This document shows positions 7,605 through 64,000 of a DNA stretch of 64,000 nucleotides, piece after piece (position 1 is the stretch's first letter; every line of letters begins with the position of its first letter). Source of the DNA: Peribacillus sp. ACCC06369 (GTDB lineage: Bacteria > Bacillota > Bacilli > Bacillales > DSM-1321). Made by a program: the position numbers and the translations under genes. The stretch is taken from contig NZ_JAUCEN010000002.1 of the NCBI RefSeq assembly GCF_030348945.1, positions 4,340,001-4,404,000 of the forward strand. Direction: 5' to 3'. The notes below the pieces were generated by a model, which was not told the DNA's origin, ran no database searches, and worked only from the letters and a program-made list of their open reading frames with translations.

Positions 7605-9008
7605 TTGTCTACATATCTAGAAAGTCATGCTTTGGAAGAAACGGAGTTCAACCATACTGCGGATTTGGATGAATCTCTGAAGCCTAAAACAAAAGAAGAT
7701 AGGACGGTTGGCCCGATATCCTATATATTCATGTGGATTGGAGACGGCGTCAATTTAGGGAATATGACACTAGGGGCCAGCTTGGTTGTAGCGGGAACCG
7801 CAACGTTGAACATCATTCAGACGTTTGCTGCAGCTGCCATCGCCATCGCCATCATTTCCATGATTTTCGCTTTAAATGATAGGATCGGATACAGGACCGG
7901 AATTCCCTATGTTGTTCAGCTCAGAATGTCCTTCGGGATGAAAGGCTCCATCATATCATCACTTTTGCGCGGAATTCCGGCCATCATCTGGTACGGTTTT
8001 CAAAGTTGGATCGGTGGTACTGCCTTAAACGAAATCGTGAAGATCATGACGGGTGGCGCTTTTGATAATGCCGTCATTTGCTTTGTCGTGATTCAACTGG
8101 TGCAAATTGCGCTTTCGCTGTACGGCTTCCATGCCATCAAATGGGTGGAAATGCTTGCATCCATCGTTATCATGCTAGCGCTTGTCTATGTATTTGGTAT
8201 TCTCCTTACATCACATAACGAGGTCATCGCGGAAAAATGGGTGCATGCCGAAGGCTCATGGGGCTTGCCGTTCTTTGCTTTCATCATGATGTTTTTGGGG
8301 AATTATGCGGCTATCTTTTTAAGCGCAGGAGACTATTCAAGAGAGCTTAAGTCTGGCATCAGTGATGCAAAACGAGGTTTTTTGTACTTTTCGCCCATTT
8401 TAATAGCCTATGGATTTGTACTGACAATCGGTGTAATGCTTGCTACCGCTACCGGCATATCCAATCCCGTTAAGGCGTTTGCAATAGTGGTGGACAATCC
8501 TTATATCACTGTAGGCGTTTCTGCATTTATCGTAATAGGTGCGATTGCCGTAAATATGGTCGCCAACATTATTCCGCCAACCTATGTCATTACTTTACTT
8601 ACAAAGTTGAAATATAAGATTGCCGTTATCATAACCGGACTTCTTGCCTTTTGCTCATTCCCTTGGGTGCTTGTACAGGATTCTTCGGCGAAGGGGCTCG
8701 GTATGTTCATTCTGATTTATTCCGCTTTTTTAGGCCCGATCGTTTCGATTTTATTAGTCGAATATTATATATTAAGAAAGCAAAAAATGAATGTTGCCGA
8801 TTTATACAGAGAAGACGGACCATTTGCAGGATATAATCCATGCGCACTGCTCGCCATGCTTATCGGCGCCGGTGCCGCCTTTATAAAAGTGGAGCTTGCC
8901 TGGATCATCGGTGTTGTTGTGGCAGGCATTGCCTATATTATTCTGATGAAGTTCGCCTTTAAGGATTCAAGATTCAAAAAAGGTACGATATTCGAGAATG
9001 AATGTTAA
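7605..9008 (+). CDS. NCS1-family nucleobase/allantoin:cation symporter
   Basis: About 467 residues with roughly 12 membrane segments. NCS1 features include GPISYIFMWIGDGVNLGNM in the first segment and GIPAIIWYGFQSWIGG in the middle. The family imports cytosine, uracil, hydantoins or allantoin; it is closest in style to PucI-type permeases but the substrate is not settled. I favour TTG 7605 because GGGAG lies 11 nt before it; ATG 7587 has no visible ribosome site. It is monocistronic and the only plus-strand gene in the first 16 kb. No purine catabolism genes are adjacent. Confidence 0.88.
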   Translation: MSTYLESHALEETEFNHTADLDESLKPKTKEDRTVGPISYIFMWIGDGVNLGNMTLGASLVVAGTATLNIIQTFAAAAIAIAIISMIFALNDRIGYRTGIPYVVQLRMSFGMKGSIISSLLRGIPAIIWYGFQSWIGGTALNEIVKIMTGGAFDNAVICFVVIQLVQIALSLYGFHAIKWVEMLASIVIMLALVYVFGILLTSHNEVIAEKWVHAEGSWGLPFFAFIMMFLGNYAAIFLSAGDYSRELKSGISDAKRGFLYFSPILIAYGFVLTIGVMLATATGISNPVKAFAIVVDNPYITVGVSAFIVIGAIAVNMVANIIPPTYVITLLTKLKYKIAVIITGLLAFCSFPWVLVQDSSAKGLGMFILIYSAFLGPIVSILLVEYYILRKQKMNVADLYREDGPFAGYNPCALLAMLIGAGAAFIKVELAWIIGVVVAGIAYIILMKFAFKDSRFKKGTIFENEC

Positions 9009-9042
9009 TTTGTAGACGCAATCAACATTCATATGACAGCCC

Positions 9043-9080
9043 AAAAAGGGATACTGCTCAAAATGGTAGTATCCCTTTTT
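9043..9080. terminator. Bidirectional intrinsic terminator
   Basis: Perfect 13-bp stem AAAAAGGGATACT / AGTATCCCTTTTT between the convergent permease and NUDIX genes. Confidence 0.92.
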
Positions 9081-9096
9081 TTAAGGAAAGTTGGTT

Positions 9097-9546
9097 TCAT
9101 GAATGATACGTTTGACCATTTTTGTAAGTGAATGTGTAGTTTCCTTCTTTATTCAATAGAACCGGTAAGTACTGTGCGACCATTTCAGCAATTCCGAGAT
9201 TCTCTGGATGGAGGATCCACTCAATCGATTTCCATTCCAGAATACCTTCCCGCGTTTTTTTCGGTGTTTCATATATTAAATCTGCATCTACTTCATACAA
9301 ATACACATATATCCCATCCAGTTCACCTTCTGGAGTCTCCCAAGTTACCGTTCCTTTAGAAAAAAAGGGCTCTACTCCAATGTCCGTTTCCTCAAACACC
9401 TCACGCCGTGCACCTATATCAGGTGTTTCACCGTTCTCGATTTTGCCCCCCACCCCGTTCCATACACCCATAATTGGAGCCTTCTCCCGATTGAGCATGA
9501 GTATTTCATTACCTTTCTTAACAAAACAAACTGTATACTTAAACAT
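9097..9546 (-). CDS. NUDIX hydrolase (MutT/8-oxo-dGTPase-like)
   Basis: 149 residues from ATG 9546. The Nudix box is complete: GGKIENGETPDIGARREVFEETDIG, with the catalytic REVFEE. The core begins YTVCFVKKGNEILMLNRE and contains WNGVGGKIE, typical of 8-oxo-dGTP or nucleoside-triphosphate pyrophosphatases. The frame is open for 38 codons further upstream, but AAAGGGGT before 9546 and normal family length favour the shorter form. The 21-bp repeat array begins about 200 bp upstream. Confidence 0.9.
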   Translation of the reverse strand: MFKYTVCFVKKGNEILMLNREKAPIMGVWNGVGGKIENGETPDIGARREVFEETDIGVEPFFSKGTVTWETPEGELDGIYVYLYEVDADLIYETPKKTREGILEWKSIEWILHPENLGIAEMVAQYLPVLLNKEGNYTFTYKNGQTYHS

Positions 9547-9750
9547 TATATAAAGTGACCCCTTTATCGTTAGTTTAACCCCACCACATGGCCGTGACAA
9601 ATGTTGACCATAGAGAGCATCATCTGCCTCCACTATTAACACACCCTCAAATTTTAACAATCAATAAAGAATCCGTAAACGTCCGTCCTCCCTCAATGGA
9701 TGTTGTACTCCCCATTTGCAAACCAACTCTTCTATTTTTGCGAAAATAGC

Positions 9751-11577
9751 TTATTTCACTCGTGAGTTTGATCGTTTGAGCTGTTTACTCGTGAATTTGC
9801 GTGTTTACTCGTGAGTTCGTGCTGTTTACTCGTGAGTTTACGCACTTTACTCGTGAGTTTTGCTGTTTTACTCGCGAGTTCGTACTTTACTCGTAAGTTT
9901 GCGCTTTACTCGTGAATTTGTGCTTTTTACTCGTGAGTTTTGCTGTTTACTCGTGAATTCGTGCTGTTTACTCGTGAGTTTGCGTGTTTTACTCGTGAGT
10001 TCGTGCTGTTTACTCGTGAGTTTTGCTGTTTTACTCGTGAGTTCGTGCTATTTACTCGCGAATTCGTACTTTACTCGTGAGTTTGCGTGTTTTACTCGTG
10101 AGTTTGAGCTGTTTACTCGTGAGTTTTGCTGTTTTACTCGTGAATTTGTGCTGTTTACTCGTGAGTTCGTGCTGTTTACTCGTGAGTTTGCGTGTTTTAC
10201 TCGTGAGTTCGTGCTGTTTACTCGTGAGTTTTGCTGTTTTACTCGTGAATTTGTGCTGTTTACTCGTGAGTTCGTACTTTACTCGTGAATTTACGTACTT
10301 TACTCGTGAGTTTTGCGGTTTTACTCGTGAGTTTGATCGTTTGAGCTGTTTACTCGTGAGTTTTGCTGTTTACTCGTGAGTTTGTGCTGTTTACTCATGA
10401 GTTTGAGCTGTTTACTCATGAGTTTGAGCTGTTTACTCGTGAGTTTGAGCTGTTTACTCGTGAATTTGTGCTGTTTACTCGTGAGTTTGCGTGTTTTACT
10501 CGTGAGTTTGAGCTGTTTACTCGTAAGTTTGCACTTTACTCGTGAATTTGTGCTGTTTACTCGTGAGTTCGTGCTGTTTACTCGTGAGTTTGAGCTGTTT
10601 TACTCGTGAGTTCGTACTTTACTCGTAAGTTTGCGCTTTACTCGTGAGTTTTGCTGTTTTACTCGTGAATTTGTGCTGTTTACTCGTGAATTTACGCACT
10701 TTACTCGTGAGTTCGTGCTGTTGACTCGTGAGTTTTGCTGTTTTACTCGTGAGTTTGTGCTGTTTACTCGTGAATTTACGCACTTTACTCGTGAATTTGC
10801 GTGTTTACTCGTGAGTTCGTGCTGTTGACTCGTGAGTTTTGCTGTTTTACTCGTGAGTTCGTACTTTACTCGTAAGTTTGCGCTTTACTCGTGAGTTTCG
10901 CTGATTTTACTCGTGAATTTGTGCTGTTTACTCGTGAATTTACGCACTTTACTCGTGAGTTTTGCTGTTTTACTCGCGAATTGGTACTTTACTCGTGAGT
11001 TTGTGCTGTTTACTCGTGAGTTTTGCTTTTTTACTCGTGAGTTTGTGCTGTTTACTCGTGAGTTCGTGCTGTTTACTCGTGAGTTTACGCACTTTACTCG
11101 TGAGTTTTGCTGTTTTACTCGCGAGTTCGTGCTGTTTACTCGTGAGTTCGTGCTGTTTACTCGTGAGTTTGATCGTTTGAGCTGTTTACTCGTGAATTTT
11201 GCGGTTTTACTCGTGAGTTCGTACTGTTTACTCGTGAGTTTTGCGGTTTTACTCGTGAGTTCGTGCTGTTTACTCGTGAGTTTTGCTGTTTTACTCGTGA
11301 GTTCGTACTTTACTCGTAAGTTTGCACTTTACTCGTGAATTTGTGCTGTTTACTCGTGAGTTCGTGCTGTTTACTCGTGAATTTGCGTGTTTTACTCGTG
11401 AGTTTGCGTGTTTTACTCGTGAGTTCGTACTTTACTCGTGAATTTACGCACTTTACTCGTGAGTTTTGCGGTTTTACTCGTGAGTTTGCGTGTTTTACTC
11501 GTGAGTTCGTGCTGTTTACTCGCGAGTTTGCGTGTTTTACTCGTGAGTTCGTGCTTGTGCTATTTACTCGCGAATTC
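9751..11577. repeat. Giant array of about 87 ACTCGTGAGT repeats, 21-bp period
   Basis: By hand count about 87 units of a 19-22-bp repeat with consensus TTTACTCGTGAGTTTG plus a short variable part. The core ACTC(GT)GAGT is an almost perfect palindrome. The variable parts fall into few classes (TGCTGTTTT, CGTGCTGTTT, GCGTGTTTT, ACGCACTTT, CGTACTTT, GCGCTTT, GAGCTGTTT), shuffled along the array. Unit lengths vary and are not multiples of three, so the long frames through it are a by-product, not a gene. It fills the gap between the NUDIX start and the P450 terminator. The same core recurs, inverted, at 27610, 48339 and 49567. Confidence 0.97.
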
Positions 11578-11600
11578 ATATATCATTGCCACACAAGAAA

Positions 11601-11627
11601 AGCAGCGATTCTCTTGGAATCGCTGCT
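11601..11627 (-). terminator. Intrinsic terminator after the P450 gene
   Basis: Perfect 11-bp stem AGCAGCGATTC / GAATCGCTGCT with a 5-nt loop and minus-strand tail TTTTCTTG. Confidence 0.9.
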
Positions 11628-11636
11628 CCCTCCTAT

Positions 11637-14600
11637 TTATGCTCCTGCCCAAACATCTTTTGCATATCTGCCATTCTCCTCTAATGATTGCAGCCATTCC
11701 GTGGCTTCTTCTTGAGGTTTTTGATAGTAATGCATATAGCTGTCGATTAATGTTCGTTCAACATCGGGTGCCATTTTACCTCCGTCTCCGCAGATGTATA
11801 GGTGTCCTCCTCCTTCTTTTAATAAAGGAAGTATGTCATGAGCGTTTTCCGCTAATCGGTTCTGGACATACGTTTTTTCTTGGCCGGGACATCTTGAGAA
11901 AGCGGTGTGCAGTGTTACAAGTCCCTCTTGTTCGGCTTGCACGAGTTCTTCTTGATAGAGGAAGTCGTGTTCCGGATTACGGCATCCAAAGTAAAGGTGG
12001 GCAGCCCCTAGCGTTTCACCTTTTTCCTTCAGTACGCGACGAGTCTGAATGAATCCTCTGAATGGTGCAATTCCTGTTCCAGGGCCAATCATGATGATTG
12101 GTTTTCCTGTTTGCTCTGGAAGTTGGAAATTGGATTGCGGCGTATTGATAAAGCAGGCTACCTTGTCGCCTAAGGAGCGTTCTGCCAAATAATTCGATGC
12201 AATTCCTTTGTATTCCCCGTTGCCGCTCAAAGCTTCCCCGCGGACAACGCTGACGGTGATGCTTGCTTCTCCTTCCTTGTGAAGTGGAGAGCTTGAAATA
12301 GAGTAGTATCTTGCTTTTAAAGGTGGCAGTAAAGCCAAGAAACGTTCAAATGGGATTTCACATGCAAGATACTTTTCTATAAGATCAAGCATGGTTATGC
12401 GCTTGTTCAGGATTTCTTGTTTATAGGTCCTGTCCTCAAGTAGTTCTTCAAGTTCTTTTACATGTGGAGGACATACCGTGTAAGTGGCAAGCGCCCGAAT
12501 TTGAGACCGGGTGGCGGGTTCTTGGAACTCCACATGGTTTGATAGTAACTCCTCGAGTTTTACTGGTTTTCCTGTAGGAAGATGGGCAGCTTTTCCCGAA
12601 TCCCCAGTCAGATCCACGTAATCTTGGCCGTTTAGGTTAAATCGACTGAGCACTCGTTCGACAAGTTCCGGTGGATTTTGTGGAAGAACCCCGAGATGAT
12701 CGCCTTCCTGATAATGTATTCCCGCTGGCAAAGTTAACTCTATATGCCGTGTACTTCTTCCGCTTTCCACATGTTGTAATTCGTAATTCCTTTTTAAAAT
12801 GGCTGTAAAAGCATGATGGGTGCGGGCTAGTGGCGTTCCGCTCACATCGCTTACGAAGTTCATCGTAATCGAGCTGACTACTCGATCATTCATATTCACT
12901 TCAATATTAAGGGTTTCGGCAAGATTCGGCCAAAGGGCTTCTGTCCATTTCTCGTAATCACCTTCAAAGTCATCACTTGCATCTCCATAGCCTGTTTCTG
13001 ACAGCCGCACCGCTCCTTTTTGTTCCAGCTGCTCATCAATGAAACGTGGAATGCGTTGGTACGTATTGGCCCAATTGCGGTCCCCGCATCCGAAGATCGC
13101 ATAGTGAACACCATCCAATGTGTCATCCTGACTTTCCTTCAGCCATGAAACAAAGTCACCCGCATTATCAGGGGGATTTCCATTATAAGATGCCGAGACG
13201 ATGAGAACAGCCCCTTCTCGAGGTAGCCGATCCGTGTAATCATTCAAAGGGGCAATCTCGGCATTGAAGCCTTGCCGCTTTCCTGATTCAGCAAGGTCAC
13301 GAGCAATCCCTTCCGCTGTTCCCATGTTTGATCCAAACAGGACAAGTAATGGTGTACCATGTGCTGATTCGATTGAAGATGCCGTGGCTCCTTTGTCCGC
13401 AGACTTTGGTTCTGGAGAAGAAACGGTAAACGACATCTCCGGCTTCCTCGGAGAAACGCGCATGGTCATCCCGTCCGGTTTGAGAGTCAACGTTTCTTTA
13501 ACATCCAATTGATATTCTTCATGATCAATCAAGTCAAAGTGCTGTAAAACCATGCCAAGCACCAGTGTCGCTTCATGAAGGGCAAACTGCTGTCCGATAC
13601 AGGCGCGCTGCCCGTTTCCAAACGGTTTATAAGCATGATAAGGGATGGAATCCAAATCCTCGAACCGCTCAGGAATGAACGATTCAACGTCATCACCCCA
13701 AACGGATGGATCACGGTGAAGCTCAGGAATAAGTAGCGAGAACACATCGCCTTTCTTCACCTTGTATTTTCCGCCCAGCATGGTATCTTCTTTAGCATAA
13801 ACGGAAAATGCCGGAGCTGTCGGCCACAGACGAAGCGTTTCATTCAGCACCATCCGGACATATTTCAGCTTTTTCACTTGTTTGTAATCAGGAACATCAT
13901 CACCAAGCACTTCATCGACTTCCTGCTGCGCTTTTTTCAACTTGTCCCTGTTATTCATCAGGAAATAGATGGCGAACGATAGGAGACCGCTCGTCGTTTC
14001 GTGCCCCGCTATTAAGAAGGTAATGATTTGAAAACGAATATTTTCAACATCCAGGGAAACGCCCGTTTCAGGATCGACTCCCTTCAACATATGGGAAAGA
14101 AGATCATCTTCTCCTTGATCGCCATTTTGTTTTCGTTCAGCAATCATTTCATCCACTAGAGAGAACATATATTGAATGTCTTCCCTGAATTGTTTTTTAG
14201 ACTTGATCATCAGTTTATCTTGGATGCCAAGTCGCTGCGTTTGACTCATCGCTTCATCCAACGCACGCACCATACTGGTGACGAAAGGATGGGTGGTCTC
14301 CCGATAAAAACTGTTAAAGCGGTAATTGAACCCGCAGAGTCCGATCGTATCCAAGGTCAATCGTGTCATATCTTCAGGAACATCTATCTCATCAGCCGGA
14401 TTCAGGCGAGCCCATTTTTGAATGAGTTGGGTTGCAAGATCCACCATTTTAGCATGGTAGCCCTTCATTGCCTGCTGGCTAAAGCTGGGCAGCAGGATGT
14501 TATGGGCTTTTTTCCAATTCGGCTCCGTGGTTTCACTTGTGAAGAGTCCATCGCCGCCGAACGCTCTCACTTTTTGTAGGGCAGGTCCAACTTTCTTATC

Positions 14601-14807
14601 AAACCTTGCTTCATCACAAATTTCTTTAGCGAGGTCAGCACTGGATACGAATGTAGCGATGCGACCAGGAAATTGAAATTGAAAAACCGGCCCAAGTTCC
14701 CGTGCCAGCTTCATGAAAGACTGAAGCGGCTTATCCTTATCAAGGATAGGCAGGCTGCCTAGGGGTCCGTAAGTTTTTGGCTGTGGAAACTGAGTTGTAT
14801 TTTCCAT
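11637..14807 (-). CDS. cyp102A: CYP102-type bifunctional P450/NADPH reductase (BM3-like)
   Basis: 1056 residues, the length of P450 BM3-type fusions that hydroxylate fatty acids using NADPH in one polypeptide. Haem domain: I-helix AGHETT at 268-273, ExxR at 323-326, and the haem thiolate Cys403 in [18 protein letters not shown] near 85-91 contains the Phe equivalent to BM3 Phe87. An FMN domain starts near 490 ([14 protein letters not shown]), followed by FAD/NADPH domains ([34 protein letters not shown]). AGAGGTG precedes the ATG. An operator for the upstream TetR gene lies 35-50 bp before the start. Homologous to B. subtilis CypB/CypD. Confidence 0.97.
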
Positions 14808-27609: not shown

Positions 27610-27735
27610 CGAAATTCACGAGTAAATGCCCGAAACTCACGAGTAAATGATCGAAACTCACGAGTAAATGATCGAATCTCACGAGTAAATGCCCGGAACT
27701 CACGAGTAAATGCCCGAATCTCACGAGTAAATCAA
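27610..27735. repeat. Six ACTCACGAGTAAA repeats in the metN leader
   Basis: Six units of exactly 21 bp (cgaaactcacgagtaaatga type) in tandem. In the metN transcript they read TTTACTCGTGAGTTTC. They lie between the riboswitch terminator and the metN ribosome site, so they are transcribed only when SAM is low. Confidence 0.95.
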
Positions 27736-29411: not shown

Positions 29412-29578
29412 CGATTTATTCCTTGCTAAAACCCAATAATATGGTCCTCAAAATGGATTAATTCGGCCTACAATTGATTTATTTCGTCCTAAATCGGATT
29501 ATTTCGACCTACATCAGTTTAATTCGACCTACACCCCATTTATTCCGTCCTACATCAAAATAATTCCCATTTTTATCA
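29412..29578. repeat. Array of eight degenerate 21-bp repeats (ATTTATTCCGTCCTAC type)
   Basis: Eight units spaced 20-22 bp apart, measured at the TTCG/TTCC anchor. Approximate consensus ATTTATTCCGTCCTACAT. The sequence is unrelated to the ACTCGTGAGT family but has the same period. It fills the gap between the small membrane protein and the mtaD terminator. Confidence 0.85.
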
Positions 29579-40829: not shown

Positions 40830-41096
40830 TTATAGATGTGACGCTAATTTCGATGTGATTTCAGGGATGCTCATCATGTTTTCCAGCGTGACGATCGTCC
40901 GGGTTCCATCATCCAGCTGACCGACAATATCCGCCGCTCCCAGGAAAATATCTGCCTGAACCGTTTTTGCGGATGTAAGATCCGTATGATCCACCTCGGC
41001 CGTTTTTCCCATTTCCGTCAATGCTTTCTTCACATTCATCTCCATGATGAAGCTGCTGCCCAATCCGTTTCCGCATACTACCATGATTTTCTTCAT
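40830..41096 (-). CDS. PTS IIB component, UlaB type (copy 1)
   Basis: 88 residues. The phosphorylated Cys is in MVVCGNGLGSSF at position 8-9. Almost identical to the gene at 41114 in both protein and DNA; differs by an extra Lys at the N-terminus and the last ten residues (ITSKLASHL). Accepts phosphate from the IIA domain and passes it to the sugar in IIC. Confidence 0.93.
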   Translation of the reverse strand: MKKIMVVCGNGLGSSFIMEMNVKKALTEMGKTAEVDHTDLTSAKTVQADIFLGAADIVGQLDDGTRTIVTLENMMSIPEITSKLASHL

Positions 41097-41113
41097 ATCA
41101 ATCTCTCCTTTTT

Positions 41114-41380
41114 TTATCCTACATGCTTGTCTAATTTAGATTTGATTTCAGGGATGCTCATCATGTTTTCCAGTGTGACGATCGTCCGGGTTCCATCATC
41201 CAGCTGACCGACAATATCCGCCGCTCCCAGGAAGATATCCGCCTGAACCGTTTTTGCGGATGTAAGATCCGTATGATCCACCTCGGCCGTTTTTCCCATT
41301 TCCGTCAATGCTTTCTTCACATTCATTTCCATGATGAAGCTGCTGCCCAATCCGTTTCCGCATACTACCATGATTTTCAT
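41114..41380 (-). CDS. PTS IIB component, UlaB type (copy 2)
   Basis: 88 residues. Same phosphocysteine loop as its tandem neighbour, ending IKSKLDKHVG. Starts inside the end of the regulator gene (4-bp overlap), so it is the translationally coupled, probably ancestral copy. DNA identity with copy 1 is close to complete over about 240 bp. Confidence 0.93.
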   Translation of the reverse strand: MKIMVVCGNGLGSSFIMEMNVKKALTEMGKTAEVDHTDLTSAKTVQADIFLGAADIVGQLDDGTRTIVTLENMMSIPEIKSKLDKHVG

Positions 41381-48277: not shown

Positions 48278-48338
48278 AGAATTGGAATGAAGTTTGATTA
48301 AAAGTACGTGCATGAAGACATATAAGTCAAAAAACAAA

Positions 48339-49042
48339 ATTCACGAGTAATACTGCTAAATTCAGGAGTAAAGTGCTCTAACTCATGAGTAAACAGCCAA
48401 ACTCACGAGTAAAACTGCTAAATTCACGAGTAAAGTGCTCTAACTCACGAGTAAACAGCTTAATTCAGGAGTAAAGTGCTCTAACTCATGAGTAAACAGC
48501 TTAATTCACGAGTAAAGTGCTCAAACTCACGAGTAAAACTGCTAAATTCACGAGTAAAGTGCTCAATTTCACGAGTAAAGCTGCTAAATTCACGAGTAAA
48601 ACAGCCAAACTCATGAGTAAAACAGCCAAACTCACGAGTAATACTGCTAAATTCACGAGTAAAACAGCCAAACTCACAAGTAAAACTGCTAAATTCACGA
48701 GTAAAGTGCTCTAACTCATGAGTAAACAGCTTAATTCAGGAGTAATACTGCTAAATTCACGAGTAAAACAGCCAAACTCACGAGTAAAACTGCTAAATTC
48801 ACGAGTAAAACAGCCAAACTCACGAGTAAAACTGCTTAATTCACGAGACTCACGAGTAAAACTGCTTAATTCACGAGTAAAGTGCTCTAACTCACGAGCA
48901 AAGTGCTAAATTCACGAGTAAAGTGCTCTAACTCACGAGTAAACAGCTTAATTCACGAGTAAAGTGCTCTAACTCACGAGTAAAACTGCTAAATTCACGA
49001 GTAAAGTGCTCAATTTCACGAGTAAAGCTGCTAAATTCACGA
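48339..49042. repeat. Array of about 35 ACTCACGAGTAAA repeats
   Basis: About 35 units of 19-22 bp, hand counted, reading AA(C/T)TCACGAGTAAA followed by ACTGCTA, GTGCTCT, CAGCTTA, ACAGCCA or GCTGCTA. Same core as the array at 9751 but in opposite orientation on this strand. Relative to the upstream methyltransferase gene the orientation equals that of the 9751 array relative to the P450 gene. One unit near 48840 is truncated (CACGAG directly joined to ACTCACGAG). Confidence 0.96.
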
Positions 49043-49172
49043 GGATATCGATCAAACTCTCGATTTTATCGATCAATCTCTCGTATTTATCGATCAAACT
49101 CGAATTTATCGTCCAAACTCTCGTATATATCGCACAAACTCACAATTTTATCAATCAAACTTACGTATATAT
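49043..49172. repeat. Second 21-bp repeat family (ATCGATCAAACTC type)
   Basis: Six units, five of 21 bp and one of 19: ATCGATCAAACTCTCGATTT, ATCGATCAATCTCTCGTATT, ATCGTCCAAACTCTCGTATA and variants. Joined directly to the last ACTCACGAG unit and keeps its period while the sequence changes. Confidence 0.85.
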
Positions 49173-49227
49173 CGCCAAATTTCCTTTTCTTGAAGAAAAA
49201 ATAAAATGAATTTCTATAATCTTGAAT

Positions 49228-49566: not shown

Positions 49567-49631
49567 CGCTCTAACTCACGAGTAAACCACCAAATTCACC
49601 TGTAAAACGCAGAAATTCACGATTTAAACGC
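49567..49631. repeat. Three degenerate ACTCACGAGTAAA units
   Basis: AACTCACGAGTAAACCACC, AATTCACCTGTAAAACGC and AATTCACGATTTAAACGC, stepping about 21 bp. Orientation as in the 48339 array. Confidence 0.75.
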
Positions 49632-61781: not shown

Positions 61782-64000
61782 TTATTGATTGTGTTTCTTT
61801 TCCTCTTGTTGTTTATGCTTCTCTTCTTTTTGCTTATGCTTCTCTTCCTTTTGTTTGTGTTTCTTTTCCTCTTGTTGTTTATGCTTCTCTTCCTTTTGTT
61901 TATATTTCTCTTCCTCTTGTTTATGTTGTTTATCCTCTTTATTTCCATCAATATCAAATGGTTTATCTTTATTATTTTTTGTAACTGGTGGAGCTTCTTC
62001 AGGATTTGCACCTTTAATGAACAGTTCATTATTCACCTGGTATACATCACTAGGCTGTTGGAAGCTACTCCGGTCTGTTCCAAACGCTTCCAGCATGACC
62101 TTAAACATTTGGTGCGAGATTTTAGTTATATTTCCATCCATATAATTACCCGGACCATTTTTAGTATATCCAGTCCAAACCGCCATAGTGTATTGCGGTG
62201 TATAACCAGCGAACCAACTATCATTTACCGAACCGGATGGATATCCATATTGTGCTCTGGTTTTACTGTCAAAATTGGTTGTGCCAGTTTTTCCAGCCAC
62301 ATCTAGTCCAAGGACATCTGCTGTTTTTCCTGTACCAGATTTTACGACTGTCCGTAACATATCCGTCACCAAATAAGCTGTGTAGTCATGCATAACACGT
62401 TTTGGCTTTGGAGTTAAATTAACAACTCTGCCATCAGGATAGACAACTTTACGAACAAAATGTGGTGTATTGTATTCACCGTTATTTCCAAAAGCACTAT
62501 ATGCCCCTGCCAGCTCTAATGGATTAACCGTATTACTTCCAATCGCATATGATTCGTACACCTTATTATTATTAAAAGTAATACCCAGATTTTCTGCAAA
62601 GTTTTGTGCTTTATCCATCCCTACTTCTTGAAGGGTAAGGAGTGCTGGAATATTGTATGACCATTGAAGTGCTGTTCTAATCGACAACATTCCGTGATAT
62701 TGATGATCCCAGTTAGAAATAGATTGACCATTTGAGTAGGTTATCTCATGATCATTAATTTGGTGTGCTGTAGACCATTTTGAATTTTCAATAGCCGGAC
62801 CATAATCAAAGACTGGCTTGAAAGTAGATCCTGGTTGACGTTTAATATCAACCGCAAAGTTGTTGCCTCGGAAGGAAGCTTTATATTGGTTTCGACCGCT
62901 TCCAATAGCTCGAACTTCTCCTGTTTTTGTATCTAAAAATACGAAGGCTCCTTGAAAATTGTCATTTGGATAAGAAATAATCGTATCGGTGTTCATTATT
63001 TTGTCCGCAAAGGTCTGAGCTTTTGGATCTAGCGTCGTATAAATAGATAATCCATCCGAACTGATATCTACATTTTTCAGCTTTCTTTCAACTTCTTTTA
63101 CAACAGCGTCCAAAAACGCCTCGTACGGCATTCCATGTTGTTTCTTTTTTGGAACAAGTCCTGATGTAACTGGAACCTTCTTTGCATCCTCCAATTGCTT
63201 TTTCGTAATATACCCTAGTTTATACATGGCTTCTAAAACAATATTTCGACGATTTGTTGCAGCTTTCACATGTTCGGGTTCAGTGGGATCGTAATAACTT
63301 GGACTCTGTGGGAGCCCCGCCAACATAGCGGCCTGCGGAAGCGTTAATTTATTTAGATGATCGGCATCGATTCCGTAGTAATTTTTGGCGGCAGCTGCTA
63401 CACCATATGCCCCGTCTCCAAGGTAGATCTTATTTAAATACATCATTAAGATTTCATGTTTAGAATACTTTTGCTCAAGCTGATATGCCAAACTCCATTC
63501 CTGTACCTTTCGCTTTATTGTTTTCTGTGGGGACAAAAAGGAGTTTTTGATGACCTGCTGTGTAATCGTACTTCCGCCTTGAGATCCGAAATCCCCTTTT
63601 AGGTTCTTGAAGATTGCTCTCGCAGTTCCTTTTATATCAATGCCATTGTGTTCATAAAAATGTGCATCCTCCGTGGCAATGAAAGCATGTTCCAACATTT
63701 TTGGAACTTGAGAATACTTAATTTTTGTCCGCTTTTCTTTACCATATTCGTAAAGGAAATTCCCGTTTTTATCGTATAATTTGGTAGAAAGCGGATCGAC
63801 TAGTTTTGAAGCATCTATTTTAGGTGCATCCTTAATCATTGCTGTAACCGTAACTGCCCCTATTCCAATTGAAACAACACCTAACAGTAAGCACCAAAGT
63901 AAAACTTTTTTCAAGAAAGACCTTCTTTTAGGGGAGTTTTTACCTTTTTTTTGATCTTGTTTTGTTTTTTCCACTTGTTTTCGTTCCTGACGAGAACGAT
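61782..64000 (-). CDS. Class A penicillin-binding protein (PBP1A/PonA type), 5' end outside window
   Basis: At least 739 residues. Cytoplasmic basic N-terminus, one membrane anchor (VLLWCLLLGVVSIGIGAVTV), glycosyltransferase-51 domain (IATEDAHFYEHNGID, GGSTITQQVIKN), then transpeptidase with QPGSTFKP (catalytic Ser), SYN-like WSYNIPALL and KTGTT. The frame stays open to the right edge and reads RQERKQVEK before the GTG at 63974, matching family N-termini, so the true start lies beyond 64000. The C-terminus is a 50-residue repeat of Lys, Glu, His and Gln (HKQKEEK units). Confidence 0.94.
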   Translation of the reverse strand, partial: RSRQERKQVEKTKQDQKKGKNSPKRRSFLKKVLLWCLLLGVVSIGIGAVTVTAMIKDAPKIDASKLVDPLSTKLYDKNGNFLYEYGKEKRTKIKYSQVPKMLEHAFIATEDAHFYEHNGIDIKGTARAIFKNLKGDFGSQGGSTITQQVIKNSFLSPQKTIKRKVQEWSLAYQLEQKYSKHEILMMYLNKIYLGDGAYGVAAAAKNYYGIDADHLNKLTLPQAAMLAGLPQSPSYYDPTEPEHVKAATNRRNIVLEAMYKLGYITKKQLEDAKKVPVTSGLVPKKKQHGMPYEAFLDAVVKEVERKLKNVDISSDGLSIYTTLDPKAQTFADKIMNTDTIISYPNDNFQGAFVFLDTKTGEVRAIGSGRNQYKASFRGNNFAVDIKRQPGSTFKPVFDYGPAIENSKWSTAHQINDHEITYSNGQSISNWDHQYHGMLSIRTALQWSYNIPALLTLQEVGMDKAQNFAENLGITFNNNKVYESYAIGSNTVNPLELAGAYSAFGNNGEYNTPHFVRKVVYPDGRVVNLTPKPKRVMHDYTAYLVTDMLRTVVKSGTGKTADVLGLDVAGKTGTTNFDSKTRAQYGYPSGSVNDSWFAGYTPQYTMAVWTGYTKNGPGNYMDGNITKISHQMFKVMLEAFGTDRSSFQQPSDVYQVNNELFIKGANPEEAPPVTKNNKDKPFDIDGNKEDKQHKQEEEKYKQKEEKHKQQEEKKHKQKEEKHKQKEEKHKQQEEKKHNQ

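Follow-up and report, generated by a model that had tools for sequence, protein, structure and literature searches.

What kind of element fills 1.8 kb of intergenic DNA in Peribacillus sp. ACCC06369 with dozens of copies of one short unit, and why would the size of such a unit stay constant when its sequence does not? The array in question lies in a stretch of 64,000 nucleotides (the window; C2:4340001-4404000). C2 is the chromosome contig, with 5,466,422 bases, of a genome that totals 5,624,650 bases and is referred to below as the source genome. Counting cores with two or fewer mismatches to ACTCGTGAGT gives 87 non-overlapping copies, the first at 9758 and the last at 11566-11575 (no mismatch in 56 of them, one in 28, and two in three). 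The 86 start-to-start steps measure 21 bp in 63 cases, 19 bp in 13, 20 bp in four, 29 bp in three, 22 bp in two, and 27 bp in one, and Tandem Repeats Finder reports 84.7 copies with a period of 21 over positions 9784-11549. A preliminary description of this DNA had estimated about 87 copies over 1.8 kb between two flanking genes, with steps of about two helical turns that would place the cores on approximately one face of the DNA; the coordinates were right, the exact count coincides with the estimate, the predominance of 21-bp steps agrees with the two-turn spacing, and the 21-bp peak that had been set beforehand as a test is strong. The short variable part that it placed in each unit does exist, but it consists of a small vocabulary of GC-rich spacers that are reused in blocks along the array. 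Among the 30 arrays found in the source genome, this one (the main array) is the longest.

Table 1. Repeat arrays and neighboring features in the 64,000-nucleotide window (positions counted from its first letter)
Feature	Position	Strand	Remarks
Gene, presumably for a NUDIX-like hydrolase	9097..9660	-	Start side faces the main array; the true start may be internal
Main array	9755..11577	+	87 units of core TTTACTCGTGARTT plus spacer; step mainly 21 bp
Hairpin AGCAGCGATTC/GAATCGCTGCT followed by a T-rich run	11601..11627	-	Read from the sequence; flagged by script as a minus-strand terminator
Gene, presumably for a P450-reductase fusion	11637..14807	-	Open reading frame; ends beside the main array
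Same-family array, 6 units	27612..27731	-	Orientation contrary to the replichore rule
Other-family array (TTATTTCGACCTACA, step 20-21 bp)	29457..29566	+	GC/AT alternation of about 10 bp
Same-family array, 33 units (37 with looser merging)	48337..49047	-	Orientation contrary to the replichore rule
Third-family array (TATCGATCAAACTCTCGAATT, 21 bp)	49045..49174	-	Joined to the array at 48337..49047
Three-unit same-family group	49572..49627	-	

The hairpin beside the main array (Table 1) is probably the intrinsic terminator of the P450 gene, judging from its stem and T-rich run, and the array would then begin just past that terminator. The P450 gene is taken to encode a CYP102-like fusion and also occurs at array loci L064, L118, and L278, while the NUDIX-like gene is also found at array loci L083, L113, L056, and L278. 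Elsewhere in the window, a 287-bp unit at 40844-41378 is present in 1.9 copies matching at 97%, a recent duplication, and the gene at 61782-63974, presumably penicillin-binding-protein-like, carries a C-terminal tail of coding 21-bp repeats of the KEEKHKQ type (61795-61939).

The main array belongs to a class that is already known, and the view that it matches no nameable repeat class does not hold. Tandem repeats of constant size (20-21 nt and 52 nt) and free sequence have been described in Bacillus (Subirana and Messeguer 2021, PMC8161180); the available text of that work equates 20-21 nt with two helical turns, lists B. simplex and B. muralis among the species in which 21-nt repeats abound, proposes nucleoid protein polymers or small RNAs, describes the function of the repeats as unknown, and sees no obvious explanation for the combination of constant size and free sequence. 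The published 20-21-nt class shares with the present arrays its step, several families per genome, a conserved short signal, clade specificity, and a non-coding location. At least four repeats with at least 60% of one length within 1 nt define the class, and 69 of the 86 steps here are 20-22 bp; three families of the same size occur in the window; the core columns supply the conserved signal, which is restricted in its distribution among genomes (21 of 36 in the genus and none of seven others); and the arrays lie between open reading frames. A coding repeat, which the preliminary description had also dismissed, is ruled out for the main array by its steps of 19, 20, 22, and 29 bp, which break the frame. 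The 52-nt repeats of Bacillus likewise combine constant size with variable sequence and a GC periodicity of 10.4 bp, but they span five turns per unit instead of two, and Table 5 of PMC8161180 gives NO for the SIMPLEX group. A word search of the main text of PMC8161180 finds no mention of periodicity, curvature, orientation, terminators, or intergenic placement; the helical wave, the polarity, the placement at gene ends, and the change of core at shared loci described below come from the present analysis.

Other known systems fit less well. CRISPR arrays have long repeats and unique spacers of about 30 bp, and the 14-bp core with 7-bp spacers reused inside the array excludes that assignment, as had been claimed earlier. 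The STAR elements of Staphylococcus are likewise intergenic direct repeats with locus-specific spacers, expansion and contraction, and a function described as unknown, but their consensus is GC-rich and 14 bp long, and their spacers measure 40 bp or more (PMC3532100, in the text available); that consensus, T(G/A/T)TGTTG(G/T)GGCCC(C/A), is not that of the core TTTACTCGTGARTT, and the spacers here are 7 bp long. A full-text literature search with the letters of the core yielded, among the matches listed, no work on bacterial repeats by title or abstract, and the accessible portions of the literature on the repeat class, STAR elements, and gyrase contain nothing on the periodicity or polarity of these arrays. 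An origin from a plasmid or phage was rejected after a blastn search of 72,556 plasmid records and 50,697 phage records gave no match, although this search, in which the low-complexity filter was on, is weak for repeats.

The anatomy of the unit accounts for its most regular property. Each unit combines a nearly fixed 14-bp core, TTTACTCGTGARTT, with a 7-bp spacer of free, GC-rich sequence. Over 36 unit groups of the source genome, with loci weighted equally, the core columns carry 1.7-2.0 bits, save column 1 (1.33) and the R column (1.01); column 15 is mainly T or C, and spacer columns 16-21 hold only 0.1-0.4 bits (units were chosen by core with two or fewer mismatches, and 47 of 607 steps were of 39-42 bp, likely reflecting one missed unit). 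Distinct unit types inside one locus differ by 0.08 per core site versus 0.46 per spacer site. The GC content of spacer positions 16-21 is 67% in the source genome (156 locus-spacer types) and 69% in a sister-species genome, G014 (91 types), in flanking intergenic DNA of 37% and 41% GC, respectively. Because one GC block lies in the core and another in the GC-rich spacer, GC blocks follow each other at about 10.5 bp with AT between them. This alternation of AT and GC once per helical turn, between core and spacer, is new here.

The wave is pronounced. In the main array, GC power reaches 121 at 10.30 bp, compared with 3.7 near 21 bp and 2.5 near 7 bp, and it does not exceed 10.0 in 39 background stretches, which were taken between 12 and 48 kb in the window and include two small arrays. 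Power at 10.5 bp is greater than power at 21 bp in all arrays of at least 200 bp (19 of 19 in the source genome and seven of seven in G014), and the array periods range from 9.9 to 10.5 bp. A scan of the 64-kb window for the wave that was blind to repeats (160-bp windows, threshold 14) returned exactly four regions, every one an array, and it returned none in three shuffles or in 400 kb of G011, a genome without the main family. Permuting the order of the columns gave P values of 0.011 (source) and 0.0006 (G014). Coding repeats of 21 bp (61795-61939 in the window, and L302) have 0.2 and 1.4 power per 100 bp versus a main-family mean of 13.9, a mean that rests on 213 overlapping and related rows in a comparison where the script classed the repeat at 61795 as 'other intergenic'.

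The wave is common to most of the arrays of unrelated sequence that were examined and is tied to no single sequence. Power of 12.5-50.7 at 10.05-10.30 bp is seen in three further array families of the genus (pieces from the window, L289, L082, and L130). In the TTCGWCCTA family the wave is less pure: of 18 pieces, some of them overlapping, 13 have a larger term at 10 bp than at 20 bp. Among 38 further repeats that are intergenic by the script's classification, 30 show the same excess. Arrays of the GGACGAATT type with 20-21-bp steps in G014 (L288, 1480-1760 and 2914-3021) probably represent the TTCGWCCTA family on the opposite strand. Beyond the genus, an unrelated core, TCGCGG, given for B. 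weihaiensis (PMC8161180, available text), marks arrays with a 21-bp step; of 398 genomes of the class, 11 have such arrays, and they come from eight of 146 genera. Nine of the 12 distinct arrays picked with TCGCGG in other genera have power of at least 13 at 10.3-10.55 bp. The other three are L323, whose repeat is 7 bp long, L324, which is probably coding, and L321, a weak array; open frames of 120-349 aa lie near TCGCGG arrays, and some may be coding. The search pattern by itself sets one GC block every 21 bp, yet power at 10.5 bp exceeds power at 21 bp in 10 of the 12, one of the nine strong arrays (L319) having more at 21 bp; the excess is attributed to the rest of the unit, since a lone block of that width is estimated to be weaker at 10.5 bp than at 21 bp. 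In the published 52-nt consensi, the fifth harmonic (52/5 = 10.4 bp) averages 11.4% of GC power while the other printed harmonics carry 2-6%, and it is significant (P<0.05) in 15 of 27 consensi; some of these are near-copies of each other, so that a P value combined over all of them is too favorable. The wave is absent from two weak 20-bp arrays of G011 (L295 and L308; 0.7 and 0.4 per 100 bp), and a 70-bp piece of another array in that genome (L293) has 6.9 at 10.40 bp. Three short AT-rich arrays of about 20 bp in G011 (L295, L304, and L308) lie near probable terminators and have no clear 10-bp wave.

The main family is abundant in the source genome and widespread, but not universal, in the genus. 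The 5.62-Mb source genome contains 523 exact 14-bp sites of TTTACTCGTGARTT (376 plus, 147 minus) and no site of the same motif read backwards, so that its abundance is not due to chance. The map used for the statistics comprises 29 arrays of at least three units, which contain 463 of the 523 exact sites; a thirtieth array (C2:4524953-4526038; 34 listed sites on the plus strand) obeys the replichore rule described below and stands outside the 29-array statistics, and outside the mapped arrays there are 19 minus-strand and at most seven plus-strand exact sites. The family was matched in 21 of 36 genus genomes, in none of the remaining 15, and in none of seven other genomes of the same taxonomic family; the genus can therefore do without it. 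The same arrays, in at least 120 stretches, occur in Peribacillus simplex, frigoritolerans, muralis, butanolivorans, and sp. Bi96, as well as in records labeled 'Bacillus' sp. BA3, ISL-34, and SD075. Presence in relatives had been proposed as a test, and arrays were found there beside the same genes.

One convergent gap, between genes taken to be rnhC and pheT, was compared across plus-strand-matched genomes and holds from 0 to 37 units depending on the species. By eye, the gap in three genomes without the family (G002, G003, and G012) is 53-81 bp long and looks like a single terminator, and in array genomes the array sits between two terminators, the T-run of one of which merges into the first unit in several genomes; three other family-less genomes (G010, G011, and G033) have longer gaps, two with irregular ACTCACCAA-like remnants. 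At the same gap, two genomes (G018 and G019; L235 and L236) have very short arrays with units TTTACTCGGGAGTT, possibly a third state of the core, and in G008 (C2:605341-606295) rnhC runs across three frames in an assembly that is 87% complete, probably as a result of sequencing errors.

Comparison with the sister species reveals that the core itself differs at shared sites. The prevalent core of G014 and G031 is ACTCGCCAATT (pair matches of 98/24 and 118/37, respectively), and pairs of ACTCGCCAATT occur in five of 36 genus genomes and not at all in the source genome (G000). At 11 of the 29 source loci, a neighboring gene recurs beside an array in G014 (at eight, the script finds both neighbors), and all 11 have listed exact pairs of the switched core. 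The search for G014 arrays allowed three or fewer mismatches and so admits either core; the switch at the 11 loci rests on those exact pairs. One of the 11 is the main-array locus, at which the gene comparison gives 86% (P450) and 78% (NUDIX) and the G014 array has eight units. Orientation is equal at 10 of the 11 loci, the exception being 4388338 (minus in the source genome, plus in G014), and the G014 array L277 still contains both cores. No spacers are common to the source genome and G014 at the eight shared loci compared. Between loci, 28 shared spacers were observed, a number above the maximum of a simple composition null (mean 7.4, maximum 22) and within the range of a Markov null (mean 18.6, maximum 37); spacers may be exchanged between loci. 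This in-place change of core between sister species at shared loci is new here.

The change also bears on what the core does. The near-palindrome noted earlier is a true property of the source-genome core, but ACTCGCCAATT, carried by G014 and G031 in the same 21-bp arrays, is not a palindrome; with the core changed at 11 shared loci, the palindrome is not essential, and the view of it as the key feature of the array is not supported. The same difference excludes a palindromic hairpin unit of the REP or BIME type. Since core, place, and step act as one system while spacers drift, the pattern is read as co-evolution with a core-reading protein, in preference to ordinary recombination, which would bring spacers along. 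The arrays may also be subject to rewriting or re-seeding.

The placement of the arrays is also non-random. Convergent neighbors are in excess (12 of 29 source arrays, P 0.0016; 11 of 30 in G014, P 0.0096; 62 of 390 background reading-frame pairs), and divergent gaps are not significantly avoided (one of 29, P 0.10; four of 30, P 1.0; 61 of 390 in the background). Genes were represented here by open reading frames, with a minimum length of 80 codons beside arrays and 100 in the background, rather than by annotations, and some contexts may be wrong. Most mapped arrays start within about 150 bp of the end of an open reading frame, and a crude script scan places a co-oriented terminator to the left or right of 19 of 29 source and 13 of 30 G014 arrays. 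Orientation matches the replichore in 24 of 29 source arrays (P 0.002) and 28 of 30 in G014 (P 0.0005), two tests that are not independent because 11 array loci are shared. With dnaA at C2:337, the source origin lies near coordinate 1; in G014 dnaA is at C1:4,907,252 of 4,917,500. The arm boundary was set at about half the chromosome. Counting the thirtieth array gives P 0.0017 for the source genome, or P 0.0005 if the boundary is also moved to 2.32 Mb, and P = 0.017 if the 19 minus-strand sites were four more contrary left-arm arrays. The preference for convergent gene ends and the mostly constant orientation to replication in two genomes are new here. Overall, the preliminary description is partly supported; both the polarity and the alternation once per turn escaped it.

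Neighboring genes do not set this orientation, as arrays in convergent gaps (nine of 12 in the source genome, 10 of 11 in G014) and most of those between head-on tandem genes (four of four and one of two, respectively) still follow the replichore. A lagging-strand hairpin asymmetry of the GT center was also rejected as the cause, the non-palindromic G014 core being equally polar. Neither bending nor wrapping explains the polarity. The arrays could instead be a polar chromosome signal, read one-way by a replication, translocation, or nucleoid-occlusion system, and the orientation in convergent and head-on gaps speaks for this, as does a terminus region without sites among those listed (none at 2.35-3.74 Mb in the source genome, where at most 26 sites are unmapped, and none at C1 1.18-2.69 Mb in G014). 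Such a signal is nevertheless quite improbable, given that the arms are very unevenly provided (right versus left, nine versus 20 loci in the source genome and four versus 26 in G014), that sites are clustered rather than dispersed, that many genus genomes have no match to the family, and that one of the five contrary source arrays has 37 units.

The location past gene ends also suits a different candidate, that the arrays are strong DNA gyrase sites, a Gram-positive counterpart of BIME-2 at which gyrase would wrap the phased DNA and remove positive supercoils. In Escherichia coli, according to the available text of PMC6379681, gyrase accumulates downstream of active genes, the arms of its sites have a GC periodicity of 10.75 bp that is interpreted as phased bending, and the intergenic BIME-2 elements have properties of strong gyrase sites; cleavage preference also varies between species (PMC12324340, in part). 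That work demonstrates that a helically phased GC wave is readable by a wrapping enzyme. However, REPs are palindromes, and the E. coli sites have arms of about 10.75 bp around a non-periodic central cleavage region of about 35 bp and a symmetrical motif (PMC6379681), whereas the present arrays are periodic at 9.9-10.5 bp, run unbroken, and have a polarity for which a symmetrical motif gives no reason. A genome-wide core difference between close relatives is also hard to attribute to an essential enzyme. On account of the period and the core difference, the arrays are not simply equated with gyrase sites, and this explanation is considered improbable, if somewhat less so than a polar signal.

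An RNA function is the least probable of the explanations weighed, and very unlikely. Read-through transcripts of the arrays would serve as small RNAs, sponges, or terminator extensions, much as the preliminary description had imagined an RNA platform, and the 52-nt repeats are indeed transcribed in B. coagulans (PMC8161180 and PMC8625621, available text). Pairing between units of the main array gave z values of -1.63, -1.46, -3.49, and -3.65, one of the two pieces folding clearly better than shuffles (the last two values). In two switched arrays the values were +0.88, -0.30, -2.59, and +0.90, three of the four folds being no better than shuffles; structure is thus uneven and mostly not kept, and an explanation through RNA structure was rejected. 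No Rfam family matches positions 9000-12500, and orientation tracks the replichore, not the neighboring genes.

The serious rival is a selfish or neutral satellite, in which slippage and recombination duplicate units in dispensable DNA past gene ends, with no use to the cell, and the core persists solely as a driver of duplication or through copying from locus to locus. In its favor, spacers are repeated blockwise at any one locus and vary from one locus to the next, and the wide variation in unit number at the rnhC-pheT gap, the genus genomes without a match, the proximity of most arrays to the end of an open reading frame, and the room that the composition-only null leaves for exchange among loci point the same way. 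Against it, core and spacer are copied together, yet their rates of difference within a locus are far apart; the spacers are GC-rich in AT-rich surroundings and in helical phase; the same wave appears in most of the unrelated families and genera examined and in the 52-nt repeats; and the core difference at the 11 shared loci is concerted. A satellite is accordingly held to be unlikely, and a mechanical site is favored over it.

The favored reading, tentative and at somewhat less than even confidence, is that the main array is a DNA-architecture site that bends or wraps easily, with one protein-recognition core per two turns; the existence of the protein is an inference, as is the function. The preliminary description had raised protein docking and a nucleoid role, which are in keeping with this and plausible. 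Each 21-bp unit provides two turns, with AT- and GC-rich patches alternating every turn for up to 1.8 kb. A candidate protein would read the core at each second turn, on one face of the DNA, and by multimerizing would bend or wrap the easily bent array. The bent or wrapped array might hold or absorb supercoils where transcription and replication deposit twist or, alternatively, separate neighboring transcription units. Between species, core and protein would change together while the mechanical pattern persists.

A broader proposal, more doubtful than the favored reading of the main array itself, is that the 21- and 52-bp Bacillus satellites are a sequence-free mechanical code (two and five turns), DNA made to switch between AT and GC with each turn and thereby to wrap or bend, in which a fast-evolving genome-wide protein reads the core and the arrays follow its changes of specificity in place. 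If true, such a code would answer why size is constant and sequence free, and the AT/GC wave of one cycle per turn offers a physical answer to the constant-size puzzle that can be tested at the bench. If right, the arrays, which exist naturally by the dozen and differ in core from one sister species to the other, would also provide a clean system for finding the reader protein, and they would represent an extra layer of chromosome architecture in Bacilli.
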